Source of the DNA: Nitrospirota bacterium
GTDB lineage: Bacteria > Nitrospirota > Thermodesulfovibrionia > Thermodesulfovibrionales > Dissulfurispiraceae
NCBI GenBank assembly: GCA_016936655.1
Contig: JAFGXL010000010.1
Span: forward strand, 1 to 63,448
Length of the DNA: 63,448 nt
Direction: 5' to 3'
This document shows positions 34,764 to 51,677 of the stretch, in pieces. How positions within the stretch are numbered: the stretch's first letter is position 1; every line of letters starts with the position of its first letter. The translations under genes were made by a program, and so were the position numbers. Below the pieces are notes generated by a model. That model ran no database searches and was not told the DNA's origin. It saw nothing but the letters and a program-made list of their open reading frames with translations.

Positions 34764-35651
34764 ATGAGACTGCAGAGAACAATTAAAAGAGAAGTAACGT
34801 TCAGCGGCATAGGACTGCACACAGGCAGGTATGCGAGCGTAAGGCTAAAACCAGCAGCCCGTGATACTGGGATCGTATTTTACAGGGTAGATAAGGGTGC
34901 TTTGATAAGGGCAACTGTAGCTTCTGTTATTGATACAGCTTTTGCTACAACAATAGGTTTTGACAATATGAAGGTGAGAACCATTGAGCACCTTATGTCA
35001 GCTCTTGCAGGAATAGGCATAGACAATATCCTTATAGAGATTGATGGTCCGGAAGTTCCTATACTCGATGGCAGCGCCACAGAGCTTGTCGGCATTATAT
35101 TAGAGGCTGGCATAGCAAAGCAGGCAAAAAACAAGACATTCATACAGATACTCAAGCCTGTAATATATGAAGATGCTCATTCAAGGGTGGTGGCTTTGCC
35201 TTATGAAGGCAGGAAGATATCCTATCATATAAGCTTTAATCACACTTACCTGAAGCATCAGGATCTCACAATTGATATTGATGAGACAGCATTCGCAAGA
35301 GATATAGCTCCAGCCAGAACATTCGGCTTTCTAAATGATGTCGAGGCTCTAAAGGCTAACGGCCTGGCAAAGGGCGGATCTCTGGACAATGCTGTTATAG
35401 TGGGCGAGGACGGTGTGCTTAACAAGAGCGGCCTCAGGTTTCATGATGAATTTGTACGTCATAAAATACTTGATTCTATTGGAGACCTTTCTCTTATAGG
35501 TCATCCTATACAGGGGCACCTGATACTTGAAAAATCCGGACATACTGCTAATGTTAGATTTCTAAAAAAGCTGCTTTCCTCTCCTGATGCATACAGACTA
35601 GTTTCTGATCCTGTATCATATCCATATAGCAACCAGCCTGCATTTGCCTAA
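34764..35651 (+). CDS. lpxC: UDP-3-O-acyl-N-acetylglucosamine deacetylase
   Basis: 295-residue zinc deacetylase for the committed step of lipid A synthesis. VTFSGIGLHTG, HLMSALAGIGIDN (zinc His), LDGSATELV, RTFGFLNDVEALKANGLAKGGSLDNA, FHDEFVRHKILDSIGDL and the C-terminal GHLILEKSGH are diagnostic. It shows the cell makes LPS. No ribosome site is seen before the ATG. Confidence 0.97.
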   Translation: MRLQRTIKREVTFSGIGLHTGRYASVRLKPAARDTGIVFYRVDKGALIRATVASVIDTAFATTIGFDNMKVRTIEHLMSALAGIGIDNILIEIDGPEVPILDGSATELVGIILEAGIAKQAKNKTFIQILKPVIYEDAHSRVVALPYEGRKISYHISFNHTYLKHQDLTIDIDETAFARDIAPARTFGFLNDVEALKANGLAKGGSLDNAVIVGEDGVLNKSGLRFHDEFVRHKILDSIGDLSLIGHPIQGHLILEKSGHTANVRFLKKLLSSPDAYRLVSDPVSYPYSNQPAFA

Positions 35652-35654
35652 AGA

Positions 35655-35750
35655 AGATAAAAAATAGGGAATACCCTTAACTCTTTCAAAGTATCCAGCT
35701 TGAACAGCTGGACGGGTATCCCCTCATTCAAACTACGACAATGAGCTATC
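35655..35750 (-). ncRNA. Folded 3' RNA of the Lys/Ala peptide gene, ending in a U-run
   Basis: Reading the reverse strand after the peptide stop: CTCATT and AATGAG can form a first hairpin. Then GGGGATACCC (35723-35714) pairs with GGGTATTCCC (35676-35667) over 10 bp including one G-U. Inside it, TCCAGCT/AGCTGGA (35712-35706 with 35700-35694) forms an inner hairpin, and TATTTTTTATC follows the outer stem. The plus-strand version has an A-C mismatch where the minus strand has G-U, so the minus strand folds better. It may be a compound terminator or a separate small RNA. Confidence 0.5.
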
Positions 35751-35828
35751 TTATTTCTTCTTTGCAACTTTCTTAGCAGCAGCCTTCTTAGGAGCAGCCT
35801 TCTTAGCAGGAGCCTTTTTTGTCGCCAT
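35751..35828 (-). CDS. 25-residue Lys/Ala-rich basic peptide (histone H1-tail-like)
   Basis: A complete small gene: ATG 35828, 25 codons, TAA 35751. The product is MATKKAPAKK followed by further AAPKK and AAAKK blocks and ends KVAKKK; it has 12 Lys, no acidic residue, and otherwise mainly Ala with two Pro. GGAGGTGA lies 6 nt before the ATG, one of the best ribosome sites in the window. Such Lys/Ala/Pro repeats resemble the tails of bacterial H1-like proteins that bind DNA or RNA, but here the tail stands alone. Folded RNA follows the stop. The upstream neighbour on the same strand is a winged-helix regulator, 56 nt away. Confidence 0.75.
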   Translation of the reverse strand: MATKKAPAKKAAPKKAAAKKVAKKK

Positions 35829-35884
35829 TTTCTTCACCTCCTTTTTTCCCCTTACTAATCGTTTGATTTGGGAAAATCTTTAGC

Positions 35885-36430
35885 CTAAGCGCGTCCCCAT
35901 AGCGGAATGCGCTTGCTTGAGAGTATGCGCTTGAGGCTTGTATCTTTATGTTTTTTGATTCTGTAGTCATTTTCATCGATTATAAGGCAGTTCATTTTTT
36001 TACCAAACTTTTTCTCAATATTCTGGAGTCCAATTAGCAGTGCTGGAGTTGAAGGGCCTATTAAAACAATATCAACTGTAGGCATCAGTTCGTCTTCTGC
36101 ATACGGACCATAAATGAAAGCTGTTTTAATGTTGTTAATGCGGAGCAGGCTCTTAAGCGCTCCGGGCAGTCCGAGTGATTTTGCGATAAGATCTTTGAGT
36201 TCTGGAAAGAGAGGTGAGGCGCTGCTCGCCTGAAAGTATTTAAGATTTGCTACGCGCTCACTTGTTACGAGACCCATATCCTCTAGTTTGTCGAGTTCTC
36301 GTTTTACTCCTGAAGGGTTTTTACGCAATAGTTTTGCTATTTCACGGAGATAAAATTTTTCTTCAGGACTATTAAGGAGAAGAGCCAGGACATCGGCTCT
36401 GATGGATGAAGAAAAGAGGCTTTTAAGCAC
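35885..36430 (-). CDS. Winged-helix regulator with degenerate nucleotidyltransferase-like domain
   Basis: 181 residues from GTG 36430, with AAGGAG about 8 nt upstream. Residues 1-75 form an ArsR-like winged helix (FYLREIAKLLRKNPSGVKRELDKLEDMGLV). Residues about 100-150 look like a minimal nucleotidyltransferase fold (TAFIYGPYAEDELMPTVDIVLIG), but the GS...D-x-D signature is degenerate: GP replaces GS and only one Asp of the pair is seen. It is likely a DNA-binding regulator without catalysis. The divergent region to tsaC holds repeats that could be its operator. Confidence 0.72.
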   Translation of the reverse strand: MLKSLFSSSIRADVLALLLNSPEEKFYLREIAKLLRKNPSGVKRELDKLEDMGLVTSERVANLKYFQASSASPLFPELKDLIAKSLGLPGALKSLLRINNIKTAFIYGPYAEDELMPTVDIVLIGPSTPALLIGLQNIEKKFGKKMNCLIIDENDYRIKKHKDTSLKRILSSKRIPLWGRA

Positions 36431-37371: not shown

Positions 37372-38271
37372 TTACAAGCTTCCACAAGAAGCCTGTTCAA
37401 ACTCATAGGGACTTATCTGTCCCAGTGCACTGTGCCGCCTGCTGCGGTTGTAAAATATCTCTATATACTCAAAGATATCCGCTCTTGCTTCCTCTTTTGT
37501 ATGATAGATTCTACTTTTAATGAGCTCCTTTTTCAAGCTGCTGAAAAACGACTCCAATGCCGCATTGTCATAACAGTTCCCGCGCCTGCTCATGCTCGGC
37601 TGAAGATTATGGGATCTGCAAAATCTCATCCAGTCATCACTGCCATACTATGAGCCCTGATCTGAATGCACTACTACCGCATCCTTGGGTTTGCGCCTCC
37701 ATACTGCCATCAACAAGGCATCCAGAACTAGTTCCCTTGCAAGTGTAGGCTTCATTGACCATCCGATAATCATCCTTGAATGCAGATCCATTACCACTGT
37801 AAGGTATAGCCACCCCTCATAGGTTCTGATGTAGGTGATGTCTGTTGTCCATACTTTATCTGTATGTGTAGCCATAATGCCCCGCAGCAGTCTGTTGTCA
37901 AACACATTAGATGGCCTGCCGCCTCCGTATTTATGCTTCCTGTACCTGCGTTCTGCCCTTATCTTTCTGTGGCGCATTATCCTGGCTATGCGCTTTTTGC
38001 TACACCTGCATCCGTTTGTTCTGAGCTCTTTGTATATGCGCGGACTTCCATATGTGCCTGAGCTTTGTTCATAAGCATCTTTGATAAGTTCAAACAGTTT
38101 TGCGTCCTCTTTAGTCCGTCTGGATTCAGGCGTGTTCATCCACGCATAAAAACCGCTTCTGTGCAGCCTGAGCACCTGGCACATTGATGATACCCTGAAC
38201 TCATAACGGTGATCCCTGATGAACGCGTACTTTACCCTGACGCCTTGGCAAGGTACGCTGCGGTCTTTTTT
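37372..38271 (-). pseudogene. IS3-family transposase OrfB (DDE integrase), interrupted by TAG
   Basis: The frame runs from the frameshift site to 37372. It holds the HTH_21-like segment (MCQVLRLHRSGFYAW) and an rve integrase core: VWTTDITYI (first Asp), VVHSDQGS (second Asp), and NAALESFFSSLKKE (Glu). TAG at 37650-37648 sits exactly where other IS3 elements have Gln (GS-Gln-Y), a one-base change from CAG. The stop splits the catalytic triad, leaving Asp-Asp upstream and Glu downstream, so the protein should be dead. Confidence 0.88.
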
Positions 38272-38501
38272 AGTATCTCACGCTCCTCTTGTACACGCTT
38301 GAGTTCATTCTTGAGTCGAACTATCTCATGCTTATCACAATTGGTTTGTGTATTGCCCTGCTTGGACTTCTTGACCCATAAATACAGGCTCTTGCTCGAT
38401 ATGCCGAGCCTTTGGCTGACTTCTTTGGTCTTGAAACCCCACTCTGTTACCTGTCTGATTGCTTCAAGCTTGAACTGCTCCGTGTACCTCAGATTCCCCA
38501 T
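38232..38501 (-). CDS. IS3-family transposase OrfA
   Basis: 89 residues from ATG 38501, with AGGAGG upstream. It has a helix-turn-helix (EAIRQVTEWGFKTKEVSQRLGISSKSLYLWVKK) and a C-terminal leucine-zipper-like coil (EIVRLKNELKRVQEEREILKK). The slippery A6G heptamer near its end (38271-38265) is the usual site of programmed -1 frameshifting into orfB; after the shift the orfB frame reads KYAFIRDHRYEF, as in relatives. Confidence 0.9.
   Translation of the reverse strand: MGNLRYTEQFKLEAIRQVTEWGFKTKEVSQRLGISSKSLYLWVKKSKQGNTQTNCDKHEIVRLKNELKRVQEEREILKKTAAYLAKASG
38265..38271 (-). promoter_or_regulatory. Programmed -1 frameshift heptamer A AAA AAG
   Basis: On the reverse strand the sequence A6G lies 33 nt before the orfA stop. 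A -1 slip joins orfA to orfB without a gap in homology. Confidence 0.7.
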
Positions 38502-38563
38502 AAACACTCCTCCTGTCAGTTGCTTCCAATTGTAACTTATTTGTGTCTACTGAATCGGGGGAA

Positions 38564-51579: not shown

Positions 51580-51677
51580 TGGCGGGAGCGTGTGGGAATC
51601 GAACCCACCCTGCCACCTTTTGAGCGGCAACACCGGATTTGAAGTCCGGGAGGGACACCAGAACCCTATGCACTCCC
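51580..51677 (-). tRNA. selC: tRNA-Sec (anticodon TCA)
   Basis: 98 nt on the reverse strand with encoded CCA. The acceptor GGGAGTG pairs with CGCTCCC (one G-U), the anticodon loop ACTTCAAAT contains TCA, and a long variable arm (TGTTGCCGC...GGTGGCA region) is present, as only selenocysteine tRNA has. It decodes the UGA in fdhA at 40540. selA, selB and selD are not in the window. Confidence 0.95.

Follow-up and report, generated by a model that had tools for sequence, protein, structure and literature searches.

A complete gene for a lysine- and alanine-rich peptide of 25 residues lies on the minus strand of the window (the whole stretch of 63,448 nucleotides of Nitrospirota DNA that was analysed). 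Comparison with related genomes indicates that it is a real gene and not a product of chance, as it recurs at one position phylum-wide under purifying selection. Its product is, on balance, probably a strongly expressed, free-standing polycation resembling the tail of histone H1, which would bind nucleic acid or another polyanion and whose gene would have a terminator dedicated to it. This reading is drawn from sequence comparison and from analogy with known proteins.

Table 1. Features of the peptide locus in the window.
Feature	Position	Strand	Remarks
Convergent neighbour, presumably lpxC (UDP-3-O-acyl-GlcNAc deacetylase)	34764..35651	plus	Most constant neighbour of the peptide gene
U-run (U6 in the transcript), after the stem	35659..35664	minus	Intrinsic-terminator-like together with the stem; from sequence
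3' stem: arm GGGGATACCC (35714-35723), 37 nt inside, arm GGGTATTCCC (35667-35676)	35667..35723	minus	From fold and comparison
K/A peptide ORF, 25 aa, MATKKAPAKKAAPKKAAAKKVAKKK	35751..35828	minus	TAA stop included; 118 homologous loci, synonymous changes dominate
Ribosome-binding site AAAGGAGGTGA	35834..35844	minus	Near-perfect anti-SD complement; AAAGGRGGTGA conserved across the phylum
5' hairpin TTTTCCC...GGGGAAA, 32 nt	35845..35876	minus	Directly before the ribosome site; across the class the arms change yet stay complementary
Upstream neighbour, winged-helix and nucleotidyltransferase-like protein (wHTH-NTase)	35885..36430	minus	Catalytic motif degenerate; in 171 of 230 genomes of the class

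The reading frame starts at ATG 35828 and ends with a TAA at 35751-35753. An in-frame GTG at 35837, three codons 5' of this ATG, falls within the ribosome site, and for this reason ATG 35828 was taken as the start. A preliminary description of this DNA had reported a complete gene with one of the best ribosome sites in the window. This was borne out, since AAAGGAGGTGA is the sole exact match in the 63 kb; sites with at most one mismatch numbered five against 1.4 expected. The 12 lysines counted there in MATKKAPAKKAAPKKAAAKKVAKKK had to be corrected to 11. No strong duplicates of the peptide region were found in its own genome, and the very short peptide did not match any profile in Pfam or NCBIfam.

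In Nitrospirota, 29 family-level groups yielded 118 loci of the gene, and in each of them a near-perfect ribosome site precedes a K/A/T/P peptide. Loci were obtained by reading downstream of the NTase-like neighbour, by a pattern search of the phylum and by searches around lpxC, in genomes that were mostly MAGs; the family labels (f1 to f43) are those of the genome tool, f1 being the family of the window. With a 231-bp DNA query, the peptide region was detected in the majority of f1 genomes. The f1 peptides are 21-29 aa long, follow the pattern MA(A/T)xKKAPAKKAA...KK(T/A)AKKK and have an identical ribosome site; in five f1 genomes two peptide genes (21 aa plus 25-27 aa) stand in tandem. In 60 stretches downstream of the NTase-like neighbour in the window's class, the gene was present in all families sampled.

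Most peptides have a length of 12-30 aa: 13-14 aa in f2 (MAAKKKAAAKKKKK), 18-23 aa in f11, 20 aa in f8, 24-26 aa in f5 and f12, 27-30 aa in f13 and, in other classes, 17-18 aa in f26 and 18-23 aa in f25. Six of nine genomes of the largest family, f29, encode the 12-aa peptide MATKKAAKKKKK from a TTG start. A few lineages have expanded to 50-116 aa, and longer peptides at the locus were found in f4 (34-68 aa) and f7 (87-116 aa). All copies together consist of 45% K, 31% A, 12% T and 4% P, with one acidic residue in total. Most start with MA and end with KKK, and KKK just before the stop codon is nearly universal. Lys/Ala(/Pro/Thr) low-complexity repeats that are nearly devoid of acidic residues, a trait of H1-like proteins, are thus present, as is the variation of size with repeat number known from H1-like K/A proteins, here from 12 to 116 aa at a syntenic locus. 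The stand-alone H1-tail-like peptide gene proposed in the preliminary description is therefore conserved, with 12-30 aa as the commonest state across the 29 families. Three traits of the locus had escaped that description: the shortness is variable, with lengths spanning the range just given, a covarying hairpin precedes the ribosome site, and lpxC and the wHTH-NTase gene are its neighbours.

Next to lpxC the peptide gene was not found in the tested genomes of f3, f10, f22, f24, f30, f32, f35, f37 and f42. This indicates that the gene is widespread but not universal, and that it is dispensable or relocated in the families without a copy beside lpxC. Beyond Nitrospirota, AAAGGRGGTGA with an MA(x)KK micro-ORF was matched in 5 of 247 genomes of the phylum to which a Desulfobulbaceae record belongs. 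Short K-rich peptides are encoded in four of the five, and lpxC did not occur in the 1.5 kb read to either side of any match. Two genomes of that phylum (L255 and L256) carry 27-aa peptides behind the same ribosome site that end in SSCKSC, a cysteine-bearing variant. A small survey of 14 assorted genomes outside Nitrospirota revealed no peptide gene.

Codon differences were counted in same-length pairs at least 75% identical and compared with a neutral simulation. The pairs are not independent, so the resulting ratios of synonymous to non-synonymous differences are not P values: 286:124 in f1 (neutral expectation about 88:323), 29:0 for the 12-aa peptides of f29 (6:21), 64:8 in f5 (17:56), 52:22 in f25 (14:61) and 20:8 in f2 (6:28). 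The synonymous excess has the same direction in all five families compared. Since the codon changes are mostly synonymous, the peptide appears to be selected and presumably translated, and the excess together with the near-invariant ribosome site provides strong comparative evidence for translation. The stop codons of the peptide genes comprised 96 TAA, 31 TAG and zero TGA.

The convergent ORF, presumably lpxC, faces the peptide gene in 28 of the 29 families at a distance of 82-594 bp; in the window the U-run stops a few bases before the lpxC stop codon. The NTase-like neighbour is present in 27 of 31 f1 genomes; its linkage to the peptide gene does not extend to all classes. In f25, f26 and f31 another gene lies between the two, which in f25 encodes a HEPN domain (Pfam PF05168), and f29 has a different upstream gene. 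The catalytic motif of the neighbour in the window reads YGPYAEDELMPTVDIVLIG and that of the f25 version SNINLMVIG. The protein had no match among solved structures and is probably a pseudo-enzyme or a regulator. The arrangement of an MNT-HEPN toxin-antitoxin system, a HEPN gene beside an active NTase, was not found, as the window's class has no HEPN gene between the two and the NTase motif is degenerate.

The 5' stems of 86 loci in the class comprise 61 different ones with complementary arms, and they end just before the ribosome site. In the class the pairing score was 15.2 for a stem's own arms and fell to 10.6 when arms were exchanged across families; other classes showed a slight difference (8.4 versus 7.6). 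This indicates that the 5' hairpin is a class-level element held by compensating changes.

At the 3' end, arm GGGGATACCC begins 27 nt after the stop codon, and stem and U-run together occupy 35659-35723. Two hairpins lie inside the stem, one of 8 bp and a weak one of 5 bp. The 96-nt 3' RNA was predicted to fold with -33.8 kcal/mol (z = -4.26; none of 200 shuffled sequences folded as well); the opposite strand of the region folds too (z = -3.5). The 10-bp outer stem, inner hairpin and U-run that had been described on the peptide strand are all present. Full pairing on that strand only (G-U versus A-C) holds here and in a sister species, but the stem of most relatives is fully Watson-Crick and symmetric.

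Conservation of the 3' RNA stem was confirmed within f1, where stem and U-run occur at 27 of 28 loci, the 5' arm being GGGAATACCC in 19 and the 3' arm GGGTATTCCC in 23 of the 27. Pairwise identity is 93% and 97% for the arms versus 28-33% for the spacer and the inside, the latter ranging from 21 to 60 nt and varying in sequence. A few variants retain pairing via G-U or a two-sided change (AGGAATACCC...GGGTATTCCT). Exact copies of the f1 stem occur once per genome in the relatives searched, at the peptide gene only, and a repeat element was rejected on this ground. When named genomes were scanned for the stem pattern, the matches other than MAGs of Nitrospirae, Nitrospiraceae and Thermodesulfovibrionales were few, scattered single records from other phyla, roughly as many as chance would give. 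In f5, f11, f12 and f13 the place of the f1 stem is taken by GGCTGGAGAA-N4-6-TTCTCCAGCC plus a U-run, which in the genomes listed is likewise present in one copy, at the peptide gene. Other families have further different hairpins with a U-run at this site. No Rfam family reached the gathering score in the region (a single chance match had an E of 0.53), and scanning for simple terminators gave no hit. In the whole-transcript fold the terminator tail pairs with the ribosome site, a possible 5'-3' lock; this was set aside, as such pairing is trivial between a purine-rich site and a C/U-rich tail.

Because the common denominator is a strong hairpin plus a U-run, the 3' element is best read as a dedicated intrinsic terminator rather than as a dual-function RNA. 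Like known Rho-independent terminators it has a GC-rich stem directly before the U-run (27 of 28 f1 loci), and it closes a unit that converges on lpxC at its 3' end. It differs from them in the 21-60 nt inside the outer stem of f1, the usual short loop of 3-8 nt being found in several other families, and in arms that are nearly invariant across genera. A near-invariant stem sequence across a dozen genera is needless for a plain terminator, which suggests that the stem may have a further function. Such a one-copy, sequence-constrained stem poses the testable question of why a terminator should be conserved in sequence.

According to the reading preferred here, the locus would be a small complete transcription unit with the peptide as its product. 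The excellent ribosome site and the 5' hairpin would yield a stable and heavily translated short mRNA. Too short to fold, and too repetitive, the peptide would be a disordered polycation comparable to a free histone H1 tail. It could neutralise and bridge a polyanion, most likely nucleoid DNA, possibly RNA, ribosomes or polyphosphate, and its length might be tuned in some lineages by gain or loss of KKxA units. Stem and U-run would keep the strong transcript from entering the convergent lpxC. High expression, disorder and polyanion binding are inferred by analogy with H1 tails, AlgP and Hc2. Against this reading it can be argued that a K/A peptide of 12 residues should bind nucleic acid weakly, so that a role in the nucleoid requires very high abundance, and that several families have no copy beside lpxC. 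It is proposed more tentatively, and with some doubt, that free-standing H1-tail peptides of down to 12 residues may act phylum-wide as an abundant counter-ion of nucleoid, RNA or polyphosphate, with a locus-specific, sequence-constrained stem at the transcript end that is itself recognised.

Two other interpretations are unlikely to a similar degree. The peptide could be a ribosome-associated mini-protein, seated in rRNA like bTHX (about 26 aa) or eL41 (25 aa), which are free-standing, very small and basic ribosomal proteins. Its size and charge are comparable to theirs, and an abundant, stoichiometric protein would agree with the near-constant locus, the strength of the ribosome site and the strong purifying selection. 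However, K/A/T/P repeats and growth to 116 aa suit a disordered tail better than a fixed pocket, and whole families are without the gene beside lpxC. The peptide is not known to resemble bTHX or eL41 in sequence, and its variable-length K/A repeat sets it apart from them. Alternatively, the short transcript might encode the peptide and in addition function as an RNA by way of the conserved GGGAATACCC stem. The 10-nt arms of f1, 93-97% identical against about 30% for spacer and inside and present once per genome, suggest selection on sequence as well as on pairing, and hence recognition. This is opposed by the variable length and sequence of the inside, by the different hairpins of other families, by the U-run that directly follows in all of them and by the lack of an Rfam match. 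A coding RNA of this kind would have its RNA element conserved along with the ORF, but the stem type differs between families; the view of the preliminary description that peptide and fold form one co-evolving dual-function unit was not sustained, as the peptide is phylum-wide and the GGGAATACCC stem belongs to one family only.

It is very unlikely that translation of the lysine run matters rather than the product, as in a regulatory or stalling peptide. Polylysine slows ribosomes, and the nearly universal KKK before the stop codon would agree with this, but there is no same-strand gene downstream, where terminator and convergent lpxC end the unit, and length varies tenfold. A toxin-antitoxin-like cassette with the upstream wHTH-NTase and, in some classes, a HEPN gene is about equally unlikely: the peptide does come after wHTH-NTase and a second gene in f25, f26 and f31, with HEPN in f25, yet the locus is fixed and apparently vertically inherited, the NTase motif is degenerate, the window's class leaves no room for HEPN between the genes, and the upstream gene of f29 is another one. 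Least probable of all, to the point of being negligible, is a chance ORF or the decayed end of a longer H1-like gene. Longer K/A proteins do exist at the locus in some families, and elsewhere in a sister genome, but start, ribosome site, stop and own terminator are complete in 29 families and synonymous changes are in excess. The broken end of a longer gene, which the preliminary description had named as an objection, is contradicted by these conserved complete short genes.

Several known proteins resemble the peptide. The C-terminal KPAA domains of AlgP and PhaF of Pseudomonas have Lys/Ala/Pro repeats that resemble the H1 C-terminal tail, are disordered and vary in repeat number, but form a 154-aa repeat region on a larger protein, whereas here the tail stands alone, mostly with 12-30 aa, at a fixed locus. 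KPAA-repeat peptides of AlgP bind DNA in vitro, and AlgP organises polyphosphate granules (PMC9239181). The lysine-pentamer protein Hc2 (165-237 aa) binds DNA and varies in repeat number (PMC2848022). Chlamydial Hc2 and the BpH1-type H1-like proteins (Pfam HC2, PF07382) share short lysine-rich repeats and a size set by repeat gain and loss, but are about ten times longer, and the peptide is without a Pfam or NCBIfam match. Protamines are likewise short unfolded polycations almost without acidic residues, but they are arginine-rich and belong to eukaryotic sperm. The likeness to H1 tails is one of composition, and no H1-family profile matched; the peptide is better called a very short new variant than a member.

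No literature on such a peptide in Nitrospira or Nitrospirae was found among open-licence papers. The family appears to be undescribed, and undescribed members may be listed in small-protein catalogues. If the sequence evidence for translation holds, these genes would be among the shortest known to be conserved across a bacterial phylum, under the usual length limits of gene finders, and an H1 tail alone, without a folded domain, would be a selected gene product. The natural length series from 12 to 116 aa may reveal what a polycationic tail needs to act on the bacterial chromosome, the ribosome or polyphosphate.

Other K/A-rich genes were noticed. An f13 genome (G053; L028:1521-1823) has a separate gene of 100 aa in which a K/A tail is joined to a segment that is rich in cysteine and resembles a metal ribbon, and to another short K-rich end; its K/A tail matched HC2 at 3.9e-5, below the curated cut-off. 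A sister genome encodes a 168-aa protein with a K/A tail followed by an apparent SWIB domain (L254:833-1339, reverse-complement coordinates) and a 93-aa pure K/A repeat protein (L252:620-901, plus strand). In the window itself, the minus-strand ORFs at 37372-38507 resemble the transposase pair of an IS3-type element; one of 91 aa is followed by two of 178 and 85 aa, apparently interrupted. The window also has a gene for selenocysteine tRNA (51580-51677, minus strand), and some genes of this genome may therefore use TGA as a Sec codon.
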